This document shows positions 24,574-36,885 of a stretch of 64,000 nucleotides of DNA, piece after piece; position 1 is the first letter of the stretch, and every line of letters starts with the position of its first letter. The notes beneath the pieces were generated by a model. It was not told the origin of the DNA, did no database searches, and saw only the letters and a list, made by a program, of their open reading frames with translations. Source of the DNA: Fervidobacterium pennivorans (GTDB lineage: Bacteria > Thermotogota > Thermotogae > Thermotogales > Fervidobacteriaceae); contig NZ_CP011393.1 of the NCBI RefSeq assembly GCF_001644665.1, positions 186,001 through 250,000 of the forward strand, read 5' to 3'. A program made the position numbers and the translations under genes.

Positions 24574-26097
24574 TTATCTTGCTGGAGCGGTTGATGAATT
24601 ACCATCTGTATTCATTTTTATCACGTAAACTTTATCCCCATCGCACCCAAAGGAACCTGTCCATCCAACTGTCACATATCCATCATCAGCCGTTTGTCTG
24701 ATTTCCCAGGCTTCTTCTCTGTTTTCTCCACCAAACGTCTTCTCCCACAGTAACTGTCCTTTGTTATTCAGTCTGAGAATATAAACATCTACGGATCTAT
24801 CCTCTGAGGATTCTGTGTAGCCCGAAAGGATGTAGCCTCCATCGTCTGTTTGCTGTATAGAATAAGCCATGTCCTCCCCATTTCCACCAAATGTTTCTTC
24901 CCATACTTTATTACCATTTTCATCAAGTTTCAAAACATACACATCGTAACTTCGTTCTGGCGATTTGTAAAAACGTCCACAAACGATATAACCCCCATCA
25001 GTTGTTTGTTGCACTGAATAAGCCTCGTCGTTTTCAGAGCCACCAAAATTTTTCTCCCACATCAATTCTCCGTTTTCATCAATTTTGAGAACATAAATGT
25101 CCGTTCCTGCATCAACAATTTCCGTAAACCCTACAACGATGTATCCTTTATCGTTCGTTTGCTGAACAGAGTAAGCTTCTTCATCTCCGTTTCCACCAAA
25201 CTTTCTTTGCCATTGTATATTCCCAGTTTGGTTTAGTTTGAATACATAGGCATCTTTTCCTTTCCCAGGTACATAAGAATATCCAGCAACAATGTAACCC
25301 CCATCCACGGTTTTTTGTACTGAAAGCGCTTCGTTACGCTGAACTTCTGCGGACAGCATTTCCCAAACTATCGCTCCATCTGTATCTAACTTAGCTACAT
25401 AGGCTTTGCTCTCTTCGTTGTAAGTTGTTCCTGCAACCACATATCCTCCATCATCTGTCAAAACAACGGAACGTAGTTTGTCACTGAAACCTTTTCGAAA
25501 GACTTTATCCCATTGTTTGGTACCGTTTTGGTCAATTTTTGCTGCGTAAAAAAATAAATCTTCGTCTGCGCTGTAAACTTCTCCAACAATGATGTAACCA
25601 TTATCACTTGTTTGCTGGATAGAGTATCCGTGGTATTTATTTTGTTCAGATTCGCCGTAGAGATTTTGCCACATGAGTGCAAAGTTAAATTTTACATTAA
25701 ACTCCAACGTTAGTACTTTTCCTTGCTCAATTAAGACCGTATATTCAACTGGCTCATTTTTATTAGTCCAGGTTTGGGGTTCTACAGAATCGTTTTTAGC
25801 AATCAAGGATGCTGTAAGCTTTACAGTAACAGTTCCTGGTTGTAATTCCAGTTCAATACTTGTACTTTCCCTATCAAACTTTAAATTCAAAGCATGCCAC
25901 ACACTTTCGCTTTGTTCCTTCCACTCAAAAACAGCAGATTCTATATCGTAGTTTTCCAAAACTCCCTTATTTAAAACAACCGTTGCACTTAGCTTACCTT
26001 TAACAGTAGGACTACTAACGCATGTAGATAGCAGTAGAACTAGTCCAAATAAAGAAGACAAAAAAACAGCTTTAACTATCCTGAGACGTTTCTCCAT
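24574..26097 (-). CDS. Lipoprotein with tandem beta-propeller-like repeats
   Basis: The 507-residue product starts with a lipoprotein signal (AVFLSSLFGLVLLLSTC, lipobox LSTC), so it should be lipid-anchored outside the membrane. Residues ~30-140 form a beta domain. From ~145 there are about seven tandem ~52-residue units with the pattern AYSVQQT.DGGYIV.G, a gap, DVYVLKLDENG, then W.K.FGG. This matches the delta-60/PQQ-like surface repeats and probably folds as a propeller; the ligand is unknown. The unit count is by eye. The ATG at 26097 is six bases after GGAGGGG. It stands alone, convergent with guaA. Confidence 0.85.
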   Translation of the reverse strand: MEKRLRIVKAVFLSSLFGLVLLLSTCVSSPTVKGKLSATVVLNKGVLENYDIESAVFEWKEQSESVWHALNLKFDRESTSIELELQPGTVTVKLTASLIAKNDSVEPQTWTNKNEPVEYTVLIEQGKVLTLEFNVKFNFALMWQNLYGESEQNKYHGYSIQQTSDNGYIIVGEVYSADEDLFFYAAKIDQNGTKQWDKVFRKGFSDKLRSVVLTDDGGYVVAGTTYNEESKAYVAKLDTDGAIVWEMLSAEVQRNEALSVQKTVDGGYIVAGYSYVPGKGKDAYVFKLNQTGNIQWQRKFGGNGDEEAYSVQQTNDKGYIVVGFTEIVDAGTDIYVLKIDENGELMWEKNFGGSENDEAYSVQQTTDGGYIVCGRFYKSPERSYDVYVLKLDENGNKVWEETFGGNGEDMAYSIQQTDDGGYILSGYTESSEDRSVDVYILRLNNKGQLLWEKTFGGENREEAWEIRQTADDGYVTVGWTGSFGCDGDKVYVIKMNTDGNSSTAPAR

Positions 26098-26198
26098 GAT
26101 TGTCCCCTCCATATATGAAAGATTTTGAAAAGATTGCTCTTCAGACGTTTAAAAACGGAAATGTGTATACAGTTTAGACCTTGTACTTCGTATTTTCG

Positions 26199-26227
26199 TT
26201 CAAATGTCTTTCACTTTGTTGTATAAT
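26199..26227 (+). promoter_or_regulatory. Promoter of the PatB-GNAT gene
   Basis: TTCAAA (26199-26204), 17 bp, TATAAT (26222-26227), 25 bp before the ATG. Confidence 0.7.
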
Positions 26228-26251
26228 CTTTGTGTGAAAGGAGGCACGGAT

Positions 26252-27823
26252 ATGAAAGAATTTGATGATATTATCGAACGTAGAAACACAGACTCTTTCA
26301 AATGGGATATGATAATCAAACTATACGGTGAAGATGTGCTCCCCATGTGGGTTGCCGATATGGATTTCAAAAGCCCTCAACGTGTTATTGATGCGCTAAA
26401 GAATAGAGTCGAGCATGGAGTATTTGGTTACACATTTCGCTCGGACGAATATTACAACGCAATTGTAGAATGGTACAGAAAAACTTATGGACTTGAAATC
26501 CAAAGAGAATGGATTGTCAACGGTCCTGGCGTTGTTCCAATGATTGCATTCTTAATAAACATCTTCACACTCCCTGGTGATAAAGTTATAATTCAGCCTC
26601 CCGTTTATCCACCGTTCTTCCGGGTAGTGATGAACAACGGAAGACAACTTGTTGAGAATAGACTGATTCTAAAAGATGGTAAATGGGTTATGGACTACGA
26701 AAGTTTGGAGAAATCAATTGACAGTAGGACAAAGCTGATAGTGATTTCAAATCCACATAATCCGGTTGGTAGAGTCTGGACATTTGAGGAATTGGAAAAG
26801 CTTTACGACATTGCTAAAAAGTATGACTTGATAATCGTATCCGACGAGATACATGCGGATATTGTTTACGAACCAAATGAGTTTACAAGCTTTTTGAAAG
26901 TTGGAACAGAAAATATCATCGTACTGAATTCTCCAGGGAAAACCTTTAATATTGCAGGTCTGACAAACTCATACGGGATAATTCCCGATAAAGCACTAAG
27001 GCAGGCTTACAAGAACTACATCGAATCCCTCGAACTTCTAACCGGTAATGTGCTCAGTATTGAAGCGCTGAAGGCAGCGTATAAGTGTGATGAATGGGTT
27101 ACAAGCCTGAAAAATTACTTGAAGGGTAACCGAGACTTTGCGTATAAATTTATCAAAGAACACATGCCACTTATTAATCCCACCCTACCGGAAGGCACAT
27201 ATCTAATGTGGCTCGATTGTTCGAAACTGGAACTTGAAAATCCTCAAAAGTTCTTTTTGGAGAACGCAAGAGTTTACCTAAACAACGGAGCTGAATTTGG
27301 CGATAGTCAGTCCGTTAGACTGAATTTTGCGTGTCCAAAGGTGCTTTTGGAGGAAGGTTTGACCAGAATGAAGAACGCTTACAATAAGCTCTTGACAGTT
27401 GAGCATTTCACTCTGCCAGATAAACGATTCGAAGAATGCAAAAAAATTAGACGTGAGGTTTTTATTATAGGTCAAGGAATTGATGAAAAAATAGAACTCG
27501 ATGGTAGGGATGAACAAGCCATTCATTTCTTAGTTCGACACTTTGGCAAATACATTGCAACTGCACGAATCAGGGACATCGGAGACTATTGGAAAGTTGA
27601 AAGGGTTGCTGTTCTTAAGGAATTCAGGGGATTAGGTTACGGTAAGAAGATTATGGAGGCTATAGAAGACTATATAAAAAAGACAAACCCCAAGCCGATA
27701 ACCTTAAACGCTCAGCTTGAGGTCAAAGAATTTTACGAAAAACTCGGGTACAAACCAGTCGGTCATGTCTTCCACGAAGCCGGAATCCCTCACATCAAGA
27801 TGGAAAAGGTTTTGGAAAGTTAA
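26252..27823 (+). CDS. PatB/MalY-type C-S lyase fused to a GNAT acetyltransferase
   Basis: A 523-residue fusion. Residues 1-385 are a PLP-dependent PatB/MalY-type cystathionine beta-lyase or aminotransferase: MWVADMDFKSP, GVFGYTFR, SNPHNPVGRVW, VSDEIHADIVY and SPGKTFNIAGL with the PLP lysine. Residues ~390-523 are a GNAT N-acetyltransferase: FEECKKIRREVFIIGQ, VERVAVLKEFRGLGYGKKI with the acetyl-CoA loop, and AQLEVKEFYEKLGYKPVG. One open frame runs through both, so it is a genuine fusion. The ATG at 26252 follows GGAGG by seven bases. The combined function is unknown; it may link sulfur amino-acid breakdown to acetylation. Its end overlaps the convergent gene by four bases. Confidence 0.9.
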   Translation: MKEFDDIIERRNTDSFKWDMIIKLYGEDVLPMWVADMDFKSPQRVIDALKNRVEHGVFGYTFRSDEYYNAIVEWYRKTYGLEIQREWIVNGPGVVPMIAFLINIFTLPGDKVIIQPPVYPPFFRVVMNNGRQLVENRLILKDGKWVMDYESLEKSIDSRTKLIVISNPHNPVGRVWTFEELEKLYDIAKKYDLIIVSDEIHADIVYEPNEFTSFLKVGTENIIVLNSPGKTFNIAGLTNSYGIIPDKALRQAYKNYIESLELLTGNVLSIEALKAAYKCDEWVTSLKNYLKGNRDFAYKFIKEHMPLINPTLPEGTYLMWLDCSKLELENPQKFFLENARVYLNNGAEFGDSQSVRLNFACPKVLLEEGLTRMKNAYNKLLTVEHFTLPDKRFEECKKIRREVFIIGQGIDEKIELDGRDEQAIHFLVRHFGKYIATARIRDIGDYWKVERVAVLKEFRGLGYGKKIMEAIEDYIKKTNPKPITLNAQLEVKEFYEKLGYKPVGHVFHEAGIPHIKMEKVLES

Positions 27824-29820
27824 AATCTCATATCCAACCCTATTGAAAGATTTAGATTGTTCGGTGATAATTCAAAGTTACTCAATAGAATTGTGTAATT
27901 TATTTCTGTGTAAAAACAAATGCCACCGTATGCCAGTACGGAATTTCTTACATACGATGAAAGTGCCAGACCAATGAGAACGCCGTAATCACTGATATAA
28001 CTTGCTCCTGAGCTTTCCGAAACAATGTTAAACGATGTACCCAGCAAAAGTTCTATGTTATCTCCAAATAAGAACTTCGAGAACTCAAAAGCAACAGGGG
28101 ATATCATCTTATCAACAGAGCTTGTGTCGTATGGTGTGCTAAACGAAAATGTTAATGACCACTGGTAATTTCCGTAAATATTGCTTTGGATGTACCCTAT
28201 TTTCATACCATAAGCTTCTTTTTCTATGAAAAATCCGAATCTCATTCCCAAGCTGTCTGGAAATTGCTTTGTCTCGATAACAAGAGAATGTGGCTCAACA
28301 TCTGCGCCGGGCACAATGTAGAATATTCTAGCTTCTGAGCTTTTTTCATATACCCTTTCAAGTCTCATGAAACTGGTTGTATAACCATCTGCAATGCTTT
28401 GGAAAACATACCCTGGTTTTGCACCTATGTTCTTACCACTTTCAAGTAATGCTTTCTCACCACTGATTTGTGAAATAGCTGTGGATAGAGGGAAGAGTAA
28501 CTGAAGAAATTCCTGAATTTCATCTGTCATCCAGTAATAACTACGAATCTTCGCATCTGTATGAAAATCCACTTCTTCCGTTCCAAATCGGTCAACAGGT
28601 TCTTTTAACACAGTTTCTATCTGCTTACTAAAGAACCTGCTGCCAACCAGTGTGCCTTTTTCCGTATCGAACACCTTCATGAGCAACGAATAGAACGTGT
28701 TGAGTTTAGTTACTTTGTAGAGGATATAATCGTAAAACCTTGTTTCATATACGTAGTTATCCTTCTCCCAAGGACCTTTGTAGTACTTTACATACGAACC
28801 TTTTTCTTTATCGAAAACATACCTTTTTGTGTTAGAGTCATAACGGTAGTAACTCCCAACCTCGACCTTTACAGGAACGTCCAAATTACCGACACTTTTT
28901 TTAATATACGCTCCGTTAACAGGATTTTCAAAGAAATAGTACCTATCTTCGGTAAATTGGTAATCGCTTTTAACTAAGTTTTCAAATGTTATCAAATACC
29001 TTGGTGGTTGGAATTTTACAACAATCTGCTCGGTCCCAAGTAAGTCCGAAGTTCTCACAATTTCCATAATTTCATCTATGTACAACCTGTCGTAAATATT
29101 ATACCTTGTATCTTCTTGTAATGTTGCCAGCAAAGCTGTTCGCAAAATGGGGTCAAAACCTTTCTCGAAGATAACAGCGATGTCTACCTTATCAGGACTG
29201 TATTCATTGACCACGGTTGAAAATATTTTCCTTGCGTTTTCGATTGCTCTCTCAACTGTTGAACCTTTCCCAACGATAGGAGTTATAGATTTGATAAAGA
29301 ACGTTTGTAAATCGATGTCGGTTACCACTAAATAGATGTAGTAATTCGTTACGGGGATTTCGTAACTTTTCAGTAAGTAAAAATCACTGGTTATATATTT
29401 CTCTTCTTGTTTCCTTGCCCAGGCGTATTCTTGAAGGTAAACGTATCTACCGTACTTATCAACTACATAGGTCTTTTGCTTTTCATCGTAAGTATATCTT
29501 CTTTTGTCTCCTATCTTGTAATAATTTCCTTTAAAATAGACGTAATCTCCCCTTTCATCACGTACAAACTCGTTCACTTTTCTTGATGTTGACTCTTTTG
29601 ATATACCCAACACGTGAACAATTCTTGCAGTGTTATCTTTCATATCTGCAAAAGTAGTCGTTAGCGAAACACTGAGGTCGATATTCTCGTAGACAGGTTT
29701 CACACTCTTATCAAAAACAACCTCGATTTTTACGCTTTTACCTTGCGCAAAGGAAAGAGAAGAAAAGACAAATATCACCAACGCCCAAAAAATCACGAAT
29801 GTCTTAGATATTCTCACCAT
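27820..29820 (-). CDS. Secreted protein with tyrosine-rich modules and barrel-like C-terminus
   Basis: A 666-residue protein with a Sec signal (FVIFWALVIFVFSSLSFAQG). Two aromatic modules are visible: GDYVYFKGNYYKIGDKRRY onward (about residue 90) and GSYYRYDSNTKRYVFDKEKG (about 340), each a run of Y/K/D strands. The last 150 residues alternate polar and hydrophobic and end in IGLDMRF, a terminal Phe as in outer-membrane barrels. I do not recognise a family. The neighbouring gene at 29814 has the same module and the two overlap by seven bases, so they form one operon. A role in the outer sheath (toga) is inference. Confidence 0.75.
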   Translation of the reverse strand: MVRISKTFVIFWALVIFVFSSLSFAQGKSVKIEVVFDKSVKPVYENIDLSVSLTTTFADMKDNTARIVHVLGISKESTSRKVNEFVRDERGDYVYFKGNYYKIGDKRRYTYDEKQKTYVVDKYGRYVYLQEYAWARKQEEKYITSDFYLLKSYEIPVTNYYIYLVVTDIDLQTFFIKSITPIVGKGSTVERAIENARKIFSTVVNEYSPDKVDIAVIFEKGFDPILRTALLATLQEDTRYNIYDRLYIDEIMEIVRTSDLLGTEQIVVKFQPPRYLITFENLVKSDYQFTEDRYYFFENPVNGAYIKKSVGNLDVPVKVEVGSYYRYDSNTKRYVFDKEKGSYVKYYKGPWEKDNYVYETRFYDYILYKVTKLNTFYSLLMKVFDTEKGTLVGSRFFSKQIETVLKEPVDRFGTEEVDFHTDAKIRSYYWMTDEIQEFLQLLFPLSTAISQISGEKALLESGKNIGAKPGYVFQSIADGYTTSFMRLERVYEKSSEARIFYIVPGADVEPHSLVIETKQFPDSLGMRFGFFIEKEAYGMKIGYIQSNIYGNYQWSLTFSFSTPYDTSSVDKMISPVAFEFSKFLFGDNIELLLGTSFNIVSESSGASYISDYGVLIGLALSSYVRNSVLAYGGICFYTEINYTILLSNFELSPNNLNLSIGLDMRF

Positions 29821-31175
29821 GAGACACCACCACCTAATTCAAAAGTTGAGAAATCGATGGCAGTAAGTGCTCTTAATGTGAAAATACCAAATTTGGTATT
29901 TAATCCCACCATAGGAACTGCTGAGCTTGACTGACCTGAAGTGTTGTCGAATATTTTCAAGGTTGTGAGCGCATAAATAGGCAAAGAAAGTATACGTTGG
30001 GAATAGCTTACGCTAAAACTTCCAATCTCAGAGGTAGACAAATCGTAACCAAAACCAAAAACCAGCGCGGAGATTTCTTCTCTATGTATGTTCAATGTTT
30101 TCACTGAGAGTTCAAATCCAATGCTTCCAAAACTTTCTGGAGAATATAGGTATAGAATGCTTACACCTAATGGGAAAACAAAGTCTGGGTTCTTTTCCGC
30201 AACAATAAACCCTTCTTCTATTTTTGCCCCGCTTTTGATGTATGTTACTTCGCACTCACTGTAATCTCCAGCTGTTCGAACAACTTTCAATTCCGCAATG
30301 TAGTTATCCCCGTCGTAAACTCCAAAGTAAAGCCCAGGTTTTACACCATCAATTGAACCGATATCAATCAACGCTCGTGGGAATTTCACACTATCGACAA
30401 AACCATACAGTTTCCTTAATCCTATCAGTCTACTTGCCAACTCTAAACTTACGTTCTTAGCAAACTGATTTAGAATTTTCGAAGATGGATATTCAATTCT
30501 TAGAAGTCTGTTGTTATACGGGTCATATTCGTGCAAAACTAAAGGTACAGCCACACTTACGGTAAATGCGTCTTTCTTAACGTCACTTCCTTCCAAACTT
30601 AGCACGTAAGAAATATAACATTCAAGCACATAGTAAGTATTCTCGTGTGGAACTTTCGAATAAAAGTCTAGCGGAATGTAATAATTCCCATCGGTTCCTT
30701 TTACATACATGCCATTCTCATCTTGGATATAATTTTTACCATCGAATCTAAATCGTGCGCCTTGAATGACACGAATGTACTTACCATTTGCGTATATATA
30801 CTCACCTGAAATGCTGTTTCTAACATATTCAACAGATTCTTTTCTCACACTTAAATTATTTAGATAAATCAACACGTTCAGAGAACCTTTTGGGTATTCT
30901 CTTTTTGATAGAATAATATTCTGCGTAGATAACAAATCTTGTAGGTTCATTTCTGAAAAAAGTTGCACTATATTGTCTCTTAGGGTCACCGTAAACTTGT
31001 TTGTGTCTAAAAGCTCAGATAAGAAAACGCTCTTCGTTATTTTTTCAATACTCTCGTTTCCAATCACACTCACTGAAACATCTATGACGGGCTTTGCTGC
31101 AAACAACATATTGAAACAGCTCATCAACAATATTATCAAAATACTCGTTGTAACGAACTTGGAAGACATATCCAT
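29814..31175 (-). CDS. Secreted protein, paralogous module to the next gene
   Basis: A 453-residue protein with a signal peptide (ILIILLMSCFNMLFAAKP). Residues ~120-180 carry GEYIYANGKYIRVIQGARFR, a stretch of D/G/Y strands and NGMYVKGTDGNYYIPLDFY, closely resembling the module in the 27820 gene. The C-terminal third looks like alternating beta strands and ends ELGGGVSW, consistent with a barrel or membrane-associated sheet. No family is recognised. The ATG at 31175 follows GAGG by seven bases; an ATG six bases later is also possible. First gene of the pair. Confidence 0.72.
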   Translation of the reverse strand: MDMSSKFVTTSILIILLMSCFNMLFAAKPVIDVSVSVIGNESIEKITKSVFLSELLDTNKFTVTLRDNIVQLFSEMNLQDLLSTQNIILSKREYPKGSLNVLIYLNNLSVRKESVEYVRNSISGEYIYANGKYIRVIQGARFRFDGKNYIQDENGMYVKGTDGNYYIPLDFYSKVPHENTYYVLECYISYVLSLEGSDVKKDAFTVSVAVPLVLHEYDPYNNRLLRIEYPSSKILNQFAKNVSLELASRLIGLRKLYGFVDSVKFPRALIDIGSIDGVKPGLYFGVYDGDNYIAELKVVRTAGDYSECEVTYIKSGAKIEEGFIVAEKNPDFVFPLGVSILYLYSPESFGSIGFELSVKTLNIHREEISALVFGFGYDLSTSEIGSFSVSYSQRILSLPIYALTTLKIFDNTSGQSSSAVPMVGLNTKFGIFTLRALTAIDFSTFELGGGVSW

Positions 31176-31236
31176 ACACCCGCCTCGCCCTAATGAACAC
31201 ATCATTCAATAGTATGGAACTCGTATTTTTGGAAAG

Positions 31237-31572
31237 TTATCGGAAAAAATATCCTACGGTATCCCTAAATATAAGCACAGCCGTGTTTTTCAAATAGGGC
31301 GCCATCTCATCTAAAAACTTCTGTGCTTTTTCATCTGTTGTGAAGAATTCTATGATTATTGGAAGTTCATGGTCGATAACTTCTCTAGTCAATGTGTGTA
31401 ACTTTTTGTCGAATATATACCCCTCAAAAGCTTTGTATTCCACAAAATCTGTGATATCCATCTTTAAAGCCATCTCGGCAATTACCTTGTTAAGTGGTTT
31501 CTTTCCAAATGCTTCGCATCTTTGATTTTCTTTGACATAAATACGTACGAATGTGCCAACAATTTTCTCCAT
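31237..31572 (-). CDS. DUF190 family protein
   Basis: A 111-residue DUF190 protein, a PII-like ferredoxin fold found next to crcB in many genomes. VRIYVKENQRC near the start, the central GITDF-like turn (MDITDFVEYKAFEGYIF) and LPIIIEFFTTDEKAQKFL match the family. It probably senses or regulates rather than catalyses; the ligand is unknown. GGGGG lies seven bases before the ATG, and it follows the fluoride channel gene by 27 bp. Confidence 0.87.
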   Translation of the reverse strand: MEKIVGTFVRIYVKENQRCEAFGKKPLNKVIAEMALKMDITDFVEYKAFEGYIFDKKLHTLTREVIDHELPIIIEFFTTDEKAQKFLDEMAPYLKNTAVLIFRDTVGYFFR

Positions 31573-31599: not shown

Positions 31600-32001
31600 T
31601 TACAATCTCGCATAAATAACATCAACCAATTCTTTCCCACCTAAGGCACTTAAAAGACCTACAGATAAATTAAGGAGGATGTTCATAGCAGCAGCAAAGT
31701 AGCTTCCGTTATATACAAGTGCCATAGTCTCGTATGTTAATGTTGAAAACGTAGTTAGTCCTCCCATTATGCCAGTGGTAAAGAACAACCTGACGGTCTC
31801 ATTCATTGGAATGTAAAATGAAACCTGCATAATTAACCCAAGAAGGAAACTCCCTGATATATTTACAGTAAAAGTACCGTAAGGTATCAAGGAGGTTGGA
31901 TACCTTTCATTAAGCCAAAGAGAAATCAGATATCTAAAAACCGAGCCCAAAAAACCTCCAGTCCCAACCGCTGTTAACCTAACCCAGAATCCTGATTTCA
32001 C
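31600..32001 (-). CDS. crcB: Fluoride channel CrcB/FluC
   Basis: Small four-helix channel (133 residues) that works as an antiparallel dimer to export fluoride. GGFLGSVFRYLIS, FTVNISGSFLLG with the conserved Asn, and GIMGGLTTFSTLTYE with the phenylalanine-threonine filter are all present. The start is a GTG at 32001 with GGAGG seven bases before. It lies between the PIG-L and DUF190 genes. I found no fluoride riboswitch in the upstream DNA. Confidence 0.95.
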   Translation of the reverse strand: MKSGFWVRLTAVGTGGFLGSVFRYLISLWLNERYPTSLIPYGTFTVNISGSFLLGLIMQVSFYIPMNETVRLFFTTGIMGGLTTFSTLTYETMALVYNGSYFAAAMNILLNLSVGLLSALGGKELVDVIYARL

Positions 32002-33577: not shown

Positions 33578-36500
33578 TTACTTATATTTTGCTAATAGTT
33601 CTTCTAGGAATTTGAGAACTTTTGCCTTACTATTAAATTCCGGCATAGCGAACAACGGTTCTTTCCAATCTTTTAGTATTTCTTCCTCGGCAGTTTGCTG
33701 GTATAGGCTTAACAAATTCTCAGCCGTTCTCAAAAATTCCTCCTTTATTAGTTCGTAATGAGCCTTGAACCTGGCATATCTTTCATAGAGCTTCATCAAA
33801 TTCGAATCGATAACAGCTGTTAGTATCGATGTGAGCTCTTTCTTCGCATCATCAGAGAAATTCAATGCTTGAATTTGGTTTTCAAAATCTTTCATAGAAT
33901 TATAGGCATTTGTTTTCCAAACACTCGATTTTCCTATTCTCATCCAGAATGTTGGTGGGTATTTAACGAGCTCTTCAATGTACTCCTTTTCAATGTTCTT
34001 GAAATCGGTGCTCGTTATTGAATTATACAACCTTCTTAACCTCTCTTCAAACATCGGAGTTAGACTGTTCGATAGATAGCCTTTTTCATCCTCTTCTAAG
34101 ACGGTATCTAAACGATTCTTCATATCTTCAACGAATACATCAAAGCTCTTCTCCCAGTAGTCTCTGTCGTTAACCTTCTTTGAGACGAGGTCATAATTTT
34201 CCTTATACCATTCTATCAATTGTGAGTAAGTAACTACACTCTCTTGGTACTCCGAAATAACTTGATATTCTCTTGCAAGAGCGTGGAGATAATCGAGCAC
34301 GCCATCAGGCACACCCCATACACCTTTTGCTTCCATGTATTTACATGTTTTTGCCTCCAGTTTTGCTATATCAACGAGTAGGTTGCGCGATTCTACGTTA
34401 ATTGGATCTAACGCTTGGACTGTCAAACCAGCAAAGTACCTGTAGATATCTTGCCCACCTGTTGTTGCAAGCTCAATATCAAGATTCTTCCAGTCTGGGA
34501 ATCTGTTCCATCCTCCAGGCATAATGTAAAGCGTCTTTCTAACCCAAGTATCAAACTTGTTGAAGAAGAGGGATTCAAGAGCTAATGTCTTTTTATTAAT
34601 TTCTTTATCATCAATGTTGTCAGTAAGTGTCTTTGCAATCAGGTAGAGGGAATTGTACCTAACAGCTAATGTTTTGAAAGTATTTCTTTCTGTAAACGTA
34701 AGTAACGAGAATTCATATAAACAAGCTGAATCAACAATTGCTTGTGCTGTCGCCATATCGATTTTGTCAATAAACGATGGATTATTTTTTATGTAGACCG
34801 CCAAATCTTTGAAGTAAGCATACTTAAACTTATTTGGAAGTATATTCTGGAATTCGTCGTAGTTCTGATTTAGAACAGCTTCTGGGTTATTTCTCAGAGC
34901 ATCTTTTAGGATAGCAATCCTTATTGGGTCAGAAGCAAGTGCTGCGAGGTAGAAATAAGACTTACCATACGTGTGGTTAAGCCTTACGCTCTTTAAAAAG
35001 TATGATTTTGCTTGTTCATAGTATTTTGTGAGCTCACGTGGTATTGCTTCTTTCTGAGCAGTTAATGCCCTTCGATTTTGTGTTATCTGATTTCTTATGT
35101 TTTGAATATTCTGCAAACGCTCACTTTCCGCCTGTGCTCTGTTATACAAACCTCCCAATTTACCTGCCTGAGATTGTTTGTATTTGTGCCAATTCTCAGG
35201 AGAGTAAATCTGGAATTGCCCGGAGAAGTTGTTAAGGTCAGATTCCATTTGGTCAAGTTGATTTAGATAGTTGTCTATCTGACTCAGTTGATTTCTCAAT
35301 TCTGCCAACGTTTGGAATGCCACATTACCTTTTCTGAAGTACACTTCTGAAATGAAATGATTCCATCTCAGATAGGTAGAGCCTGCAACAGAAGAAATAA
35401 GAACAAGTCCGAGAACAACCGCTTTGGCACCTTTTATTTCGTATTCCTTTCCGTCTACTTTATTAAAATACTTACCCAAGCCTGCGCTCAGAACAAATGT
35501 TGCCATCAATGCGTTCGGTAGCAAATGTCCCGGGAAACTAAAAAAGCTTTGGAACGCAAACACTATTCCGCTCAGCACAAGCATGGAGAACAGTGTCGTA
35601 TCATCACGTTCCTGTAGCTTTTGAATATTCTTTACTACATAGATAACAAGTAAGATAAGCATCACAACAATCAAAGCCAGCCCAATTATTCCTGTCTCGC
35701 TAAGCACTTGGAAGTAGTCGTTGTGTGCCCTTTTGAAGTTGTTCCAACCGTAGCTGTATATGGGCTTGTCGGCGGTCAAATCTCCGATTCCGTAAAGACC
35801 GTACAACTGATAAGTTCCTATCCCTTGACCAAGAAGTTTGTGATTCTTCCAGATGTAAATTGTCGAAAACCAAGACAAGTATCTCTCGTCTCTACTTGAG
35901 ACTGAAGCCATCGCACTAAACCTATCAGTCATTGTGAAAGCTCCGAAGTTGTTGAATGGAGAAGGAACGTTGTAAAGAACAATCAAGATAATAGACATAA
36001 GTATGAATATTGCTATCGAAATCCTGCGTAAAGATTTTAGTTTCCTAAGTAAACTGGGTGCACTTTTCCGAAGTTCTGCTTCAGCTTTGTCTTCGCGTTT
36101 ACGTATAAAGAAGAAATAAGCAAGGATTAGTAATACTATTTCTAAAACGAGCGCCAAGTATTCTGACCTGGTCTGAGAAAAGATAATAACATCTAAATAA
36201 ATGATTGCGGAGAACAAGGAGAGTAATTTCATAAAAAGAATCCCAGAAAACTTTCGAACATTCATAACACCAAGGTCAAGACTAATGACAAAGTAAAGTG
36301 CAATAGGCAGAAGCATGTTTAGATAGTTTGAAACGAATATGACATTTCCTATATTTGCTTTTATGCTTGCTCTCTCAAAAGGATTTCCAACTTGCCCAAG
36401 CATTATGTCATATCCCAAATAGAAGTTTAGGATAGCGTTGACGGCTATAAACAACCCTGTCAGCACGAAAACAAAAAGAAACCTTGCAATCTTCTGTTTA

Positions 36501-36856
36501 TCATCAAGAATGGTTGAAAAGTAGAAGGATAAGAGCACATTTAAGAATAGGTATAGTCCTATGTCAAATGCTTGTCTAAAGAAGTCCGGATTATCTCTCC
36601 AGGTATTTATCGTTGAAAGCAGTGCAACTATCGAAAATGCCAACCAGATAAAGTGGACCTTGGATGCGAAGAATTTAATCTTCTTTGTTCGGAGCAGTCT
36701 AAAAAGCAGGTACACTCCTATCAACAACGTGGCGACTGTTAAAATCGCGTATTTTGGAGTACTGAACTCGTAAGTGTACTCTCTGTGAGCAAAGAGTGCA
36801 ACAAGAGGTATGGTGATATACAAAACTAGTTCCTCGAAAAATGAAAGCACTTTCAT
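33578..36856 (-). CDS. Very large Wzy/WaaL-like O-antigen polymerase/ligase protein
   Basis: A 1,092-residue membrane protein. Residues 1-470 carry about twelve membrane segments with the Wzy/WaaL signature loop: MTDRFSAMASVSSRDERYLSW, LGQGIGTYQ and FKRAHNDYFQVLSETGIIGL (His-Asn and Glu-Gly motifs). The family usually has 400-550 residues; here about 600 further residues follow a last helix, starting with a coiled coil (about 530-610) and continuing as an all-helical region that I cannot assign. It probably joins undecaprenyl-linked glycan units or transfers them to an acceptor. The ATG directly follows GGGGAGGAGG; a GTG six bases on is better spaced. It lies 29 bp after the WecA-like gene. 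Confidence 0.85.
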   Translation of the reverse strand: MKVLSFFEELVLYITIPLVALFAHREYTYEFSTPKYAILTVATLLIGVYLLFRLLRTKKIKFFASKVHFIWLAFSIVALLSTINTWRDNPDFFRQAFDIGLYLFLNVLLSFYFSTILDDKQKIARFLFVFVLTGLFIAVNAILNFYLGYDIMLGQVGNPFERASIKANIGNVIFVSNYLNMLLPIALYFVISLDLGVMNVRKFSGILFMKLLSLFSAIIYLDVIIFSQTRSEYLALVLEIVLLILAYFFFIRKREDKAEAELRKSAPSLLRKLKSLRRISIAIFILMSIILIVLYNVPSPFNNFGAFTMTDRFSAMASVSSRDERYLSWFSTIYIWKNHKLLGQGIGTYQLYGLYGIGDLTADKPIYSYGWNNFKRAHNDYFQVLSETGIIGLALIVVMLILLVIYVVKNIQKLQERDDTTLFSMLVLSGIVFAFQSFFSFPGHLLPNALMATFVLSAGLGKYFNKVDGKEYEIKGAKAVVLGLVLISSVAGSTYLRWNHFISEVYFRKGNVAFQTLAELRNQLSQIDNYLNQLDQMESDLNNFSGQFQIYSPENWHKYKQSQAGKLGGLYNRAQAESERLQNIQNIRNQITQNRRALTAQKEAIPRELTKYYEQAKSYFLKSVRLNHTYGKSYFYLAALASDPIRIAILKDALRNNPEAVLNQNYDEFQNILPNKFKYAYFKDLAVYIKNNPSFIDKIDMATAQAIVDSACLYEFSLLTFTERNTFKTLAVRYNSLYLIAKTLTDNIDDKEINKKTLALESLFFNKFDTWVRKTLYIMPGGWNRFPDWKNLDIELATTGGQDIYRYFAGLTVQALDPINVESRNLLVDIAKLEAKTCKYMEAKGVWGVPDGVLDYLHALAREYQVISEYQESVVTYSQLIEWYKENYDLVSKKVNDRDYWEKSFDVFVEDMKNRLDTVLEEDEKGYLSNSLTPMFEERLRRLYNSITSTDFKNIEKEYIEELVKYPPTFWMRIGKSSVWKTNAYNSMKDFENQIQALNFSDDAKKELTSILTAVIDSNLMKLYERYARFKAHYELIKEEFLRTAENLLSLYQQTAEEEILKDWKEPLFAMPEFNSKAKVLKFLEELLAKYK

Positions 36857-36885
36857 CCTCCTCCCCATTTATTCAAAATTGATGC

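Follow-up and report, generated by a model that had tools for sequence, protein, structure and literature searches.

CsgG (PF03783; 4uv2/4uv3), the curli secretion channel, is characterized by a lipoprotein signal, the membrane hairpins TM1 and TM2, and assembly into a nonameric secretion pore. LptE is a single-domain lipoprotein, which plugs LptD and has neither an FlgT_C domain nor a barrel of its own. In Vibrio, FlgT builds the flagellar H ring together with FlgO and FlgP (PMC6504787, PMC6375700). The published proteins of the Thermotoga outer sheath, or toga, are OmpA1 and OmpB (PMC3387000). Beyond these two, little is known about the Thermotogota envelope.

Here, we describe two overlapping genes, B and A, in a 64,000-nucleotide stretch of Fervidobacterium pennivorans (contig NZ_CP011393.1, positions 186,001 to 250,000 of the forward strand), which we refer to as the window and by which positions are numbered. 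The original prediction, made from the bare sequence, took their products for secreted proteins with a common tyrosine-rich module, and possibly for a sheath component or a secretion pair. The open-licence literature searched yielded no paper describing the pair, and neither the combination of CsgG and Fervidobacterium nor that of Thermotogae and CsgG or FlgT gave any result.

Gene Layout

The two open reading frames lie as predicted, with a seven-base overlap:

29814..31175, reverse strand: gene B, 453 aa, upstream member of the pair (open reading frame and orthologs)
27820..29820, reverse strand: gene A, 666 aa, downstream member of the pair (open reading frame and orthologs)
29814..29820, reverse strand: overlap ATGGTGA, comprising the last Trp codon and stop of B and the start codon of A

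Gene B starts with ATG at 31175, within a frame that opens at 31205. In the relatives that were read from genera g1 (Fervidobacterium), g5 and g14, the overlap has the form ATGGTRA, such that the Trp codon and stop of B overlap the Met-Val start of A, i.e., the terminal Trp codon of B and the start of A use common bases. At most of these loci, a GGTGGTGG-like stretch, which codes for the final glycines of B, is found at the expected ribosome-binding site of A. Translational coupling through the overlap might keep the B and A subunits in proportion. The two loci read from f9, L079 (g34) and L080 (g38), lack this overlap: their B proteins terminate in Phe, and a conventional GAGG or GGGG lies ahead of A; the coupling is therefore limited to one part of the phylum and is no universal rule.

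Several other genes surround the pair. A PatB-type C-S lyase fused to a C-terminal acetyltransferase-like part (26204..27823, forward strand) is convergent with A and overlaps its end by four bases; beyond it, on the side away from the pair, lies a gene for a lipoprotein-like beta-propeller protein with delta-60/DUF5122/PQQ_2 repeats (24574..26112, reverse strand). On the other side, a DUF190 protein adjoins a CrcB fluoride exporter (31237..31572 and 31600..32001, both reverse strand), and a 1096-aa Wzy_C protein (PF04932, O-antigen ligase family) is encoded at 33578..36868 on the reverse strand.

Paralogy and Inheritance

Sequence comparisons show B and A to be paralogs: BLASTP relates them at E 8e-11 with composition adjustment, and a profile-to-profile alignment at E 1e-30 over profile columns 206-551 of A and 41-390 of B. 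Compared to B, A has one additional N-terminal domain, which bears its own tyrosine-rich module. The common module put forward originally is thus real, but the claim fell short in that the relationship extends over the proteins as a whole.

Both genes are present in 16 of the 103 Thermotogota genomes, representing five genera (seven genomes in g1, four in g5, two in g14, one in g34, and two in g38). No genome carries a single member: if contig ends (G097) and a disrupted copy in a metagenome-assembled genome (G003) are taken into account, the pair is complete in 16/16 carriers, and this co-inheritance confirms that B and A are a real pair. A plasmid search for the pair gave no match. The trees of A and B are largely alike and follow taxonomic groups: in both, the genera of f1 are separated from g14 and f9, and only a few inner branches differ in place. 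These observations suggest that the pair has been inherited as a unit, with losses.

The distribution bears on the idea that B and A are structural components of the toga sheath. Signal-peptide-like N-termini and C-terminal beta-strands in a Thermotogota genome would fit such a role. However, 87 of the 103 genomes lack the pair, which makes a general toga component unlikely, and the toga proteins that have been published are OmpA1 and OmpB. The sheath proposal of the original prediction is accordingly not supported in its general form, and we consider it very improbable that the pair builds the toga.

Predicted Fold of B and A

Each protein begins with a hydrophobic signal-like stretch, in agreement with the signal peptides that had been proposed. 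No cysteine is conserved at its end among the orthologs of B or A, i.e., there is no conserved lipobox. The assigned regions are listed below; domain identities, domain order and the position of the inserts are supported but not proven.

31098..31175, reverse strand: B signal-peptide-like N-terminus, about residues 1-26 (sequence)
30417..31094, reverse strand: B CsgG-like domain, about residues 28-253, tyrosine-rich insert included (AF2, Foldseek, hhalign)
30651..30842, reverse strand: B tyrosine-rich module (profile match, alignment)
30186..30407, reverse strand: B FlgT_C-like domain, about residues 257-330 (weak PF16538 match in two orthologs, hhalign, Foldseek to FlgT)
29817..30185, reverse strand: B C-terminal beta-strand region, residues 331-453, about eight strands (AF2, lipocalin-type matches, charge)
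29746..29820, reverse strand: A signal-peptide-like N-terminus, about residues 1-25 (sequence, alignment)
29200..29733, reverse strand: A first CsgG-like domain, about residues 30-207 (AF2 secondary structure, low confidence)
29377..29586, reverse strand: A tyrosine-rich module 1 (module profile)
28495..29199, reverse strand: A second CsgG-like domain, about residues 208-442 (profile comparison, AF2, Foldseek)
28726..28950, reverse strand: A tyrosine-rich module 2 (module profile)
28261..28494, reverse strand: A FlgT_C-like domain, about residues 443-520 (hhalign)
27823..28260, reverse strand: A C-terminal beta-strand region, residues 521-666 (alternation and charge calculation; AF2 without confidence)

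Direct searches returned no match for B or A in Pfam (up to E 1) or NCBIfam, and no usable match among PDB sequences. Among the orthologs, weak direct Pfam matches were obtained to CsgG (PF03783) for 3 of 12 A rows and to FlgT_C (PF16538) for 2 of 12 B rows; neither B nor A of the window reaches the CsgG cut-off. The AF2 model of B, built from seven sequences (mean pLDDT 65), runs in the order beta-alpha-beta-alpha-beta3, tyrosine-rich module, beta4-beta5-alpha, FlgT_C-like stretch and about eight C-terminal strands. The model of A, from four sequences (mean pLDDT 42), has a similar pattern with two such domains.

With these low-confidence models, Foldseek matched B to FlgT (8z5n and 3w1e, E 2e-6 and 4e-6, probability 1.00), followed by LptE and CsgG (probability up to 1.00, E 6e-3 for the latter), and A to CsgG as its top match (probability 1.00, E 2e-3) and to FlgT (probability 0.97); TM-scores normalized to the query length are low, at about 0.2. 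B also matched lipocalins over about 130-140 columns, which is taken to reflect its C-terminal strands.

Profile comparisons link both proteins to a C family of Thermotogota (e.g., L070, L078:5577-6779), which combines CsgG-like and FlgT_C-like domains with C-terminal strands in the same order. By hhalign, A is related to this family at E 2e-12 and B at E 2e-8, the alignment of B leaving the tyrosine-rich module as a gap; B is additionally related to a family of ~410-aa proteins at E 1e-11 over its FlgT_C part. Several C-family members exceed the PF03783 cut-off (25.8 bits vs. 20.8 for the L078 copy). An hhalign comparison with CsgG of E. coli K-12 alone was not significant for A, B or the C family; this is uninformative, as it fails even for a family that passes the Pfam cut-off. 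Among the other matches, TFIIH p62 and CdiA-CT (weak, to the A profile) and the protease-like and regulator-like proteins L037-L039 (E about 0.002-0.005) were judged to be due to chance.

The order of a CsgG-like followed by an FlgT_C-like domain is seen in the AF2 model and by hhalign, while Pfam gives no match above its cut-off. Foldseek, run with the low-confidence models, and the profile links to Thermotogota proteins above the CsgG cut-off together make the CsgG/FlgT fold very likely, in our judgment, for both B and A. Rather than unrelated folds without a barrel or a common domain, the models, weak as they are, give domains common to both proteins and possible barrel strands, as the original prediction implied. 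The C-terminal strands are consistent with an outer-membrane barrel, predicted at low confidence. In B, this region contains 13% charged residues (AF2 pLDDT about 44-66) and ends in GGGVSW. A ends in DMRF, with a nearly invariant C-terminal Phe (one of 12 ortholog rows ends in Leu), so that one protein of the pair indeed ends in Phe and the other in Trp.

FlgT being the best structural match of B, the pair could consist of flagellar accessory ring proteins that are true functional counterparts of Vibrio FlgT, and FlgI is present in 16/16 carriers. Yet FlgI is also found in 68 of the 87 non-carriers and is too widespread to be informative: its co-occurrence with the pair is weak and confounded with ancestry. 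Moreover, FlgI is located at 1786 kb and the pair at 214-217 kb, and no flagellar neighbors were recognized by eye in the loci read. A flagellar function therefore appears improbable.

The Tyrosine-Rich Module

A and B contain a single copy each of the strict motif G[DE]Y[VI]Y (at residues 91 and 124, respectively), and looser G.Y[VI] motifs recur. A module profile with the consensus G.Y[VI]...G.Y..V..G..Y.YD....Y..D..G.YV finds exactly three modules in the whole genome, two of them in A and the third in B, which agrees with the one or two per protein counted originally. When aligned to the B module, the first and second A modules were outscored by 0 and 1 of 2000 same-composition shuffles, respectively; the alignment of the two A modules with each other is weakly above chance (148/2000). 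Across the phylum, the profile detects only the proteins of the pair and two marginal matches (E about 1e-3), one to a chemotaxis receptor (MCP)-like protein in G024, which was judged a chance match, and the other to G001:C14. The module has no match in Pfam, NCBIfam or PDB sequences.

In the hhalign comparison of B with the C family, the module is an insertion between beta3 and beta4, i.e., at the loop that carries the TM1 hairpin in the CsgG structure. Charged residues make up 24-41% of the modules and 20-50% of their flanks, compared to 14% of TM1; at the TM2 position, B has 18%. The high charge makes the modules unlikely to cross a membrane, and judging by composition they are most likely soluble.

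This argues against a CsgG-like secretion pore, in which A and B would oligomerize by their CsgG domains and export a substrate while the modules line or cap the channel. The placement of the module at the TM1 loop and the top match of A to CsgG would favor such a pore. Nevertheless, a lipobox is not conserved, both proteins, in contrast to CsgG, end in a strand region of their own, and no substrate gene is linked. A pore, and with it the secretion pair of the original prediction, is possible but less likely than a scaffold or ring, and on the whole we doubt the pore.

Alternatively, the modules could bind carbohydrate or another surface, with the CsgG and FlgT_C parts serving as a stalk. Aromatic-rich repeats would suit carbohydrate binding; in several g1 genomes a Wzy_C gene is located close to B and A, and in g5 it adjoins B. 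However, Wzy_C genes are present in 97 of the 103 Thermotogota genomes and hence do not track the pair, their co-occurrence being uninformative because of this wide distribution, and the module resembles no solved structure in sequence. Adhesion is thus another unlikely explanation.

A Putative Scaffold or Ring in the Envelope

There is roughly an even chance, in our view, that B and A form an outer membrane-anchored periplasmic scaffold or ring in the manner of FlgT. Each protein would consist of a signal peptide, one or two CsgG-like domains with the tyrosine-rich insert at beta3/beta4, an FlgT_C-like domain and a small C-terminal beta barrel. The predicted barrel could anchor B and A in the outer membrane, such that the CsgG and FlgT_C domains reside in the periplasm and, with B beside A, assemble into a ring or scaffold. 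The modules might protrude from this assembly, presumably facing the outer membrane if the geometry of CsgG applies, and might bind an envelope polymer or another protein.

A more specific version, to which we assign a rather low probability, is a mixed B/A ring of the CsgG fold that is particular to Thermotogota, exposes its private tyrosine-rich modules at the cell surface or immediately below it, and serves a function other than those of CsgG and FlgT, such as envelope spanning, export or surface attachment. If a scaffold or ring of this fold exists, the CsgG/FlgT fold would enter the Thermotogota envelope together with a module unmatched in Pfam, NCBIfam and PDB sequences, and the carrier genera named above are those in which the pair is open to study.

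Comparison With Known Systems

FlgT (3w1e, 8z5n) has a CsgG-like domain followed by an FlgT_C-like domain, the order that is predicted for B and A. B and A differ from it by an added C-terminal beta-strand region and tyrosine-rich inserts, and in being an overlapping paralog pair that, in the loci read by eye, is not linked to flagellar genes. With CsgG, they would have the predicted CsgG-like domain in common. In contrast to CsgG, B and A lack a conserved lipobox, carry a charged tyrosine-rich insert at the presumed TM1 position as well as extra FlgT_C-like and C-terminal strand regions, and stay below the Pfam cut-off; no csgA/E/F-like neighbors were noticed in passing. LptE is related to B in fold, as indicated by Foldseek.

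The C family matches B and A in domain order but is distinguished from them by lacking the tyrosine-rich insert and by passing the Pfam CsgG cut-off in g5. In g5 (L078:5577-6779, L085:11333-12538), the next gene downstream of A belongs to the C family and is in turn followed by a lipoprotein-like gene; no C-family copy was detected in the genome of the window. Genomes of f9 and f8 (L063-L068, L072-L075) encode proteins of about 400-460 aa with a weak FlgO/CsgG-like N-terminus, an FlgT_C-like domain and C-terminal strands, but no tyrosine-rich module.

Finally, OmpA1 and OmpB of the Thermotoga toga are exported envelope proteins of Thermotogota, as B and A appear to be, and OmpB homologs end in Phe, as A does (PMC3387000). 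B and A are set apart from both by their predicted domain make-up, with the CsgG/FlgT fold, and by their narrow distribution.
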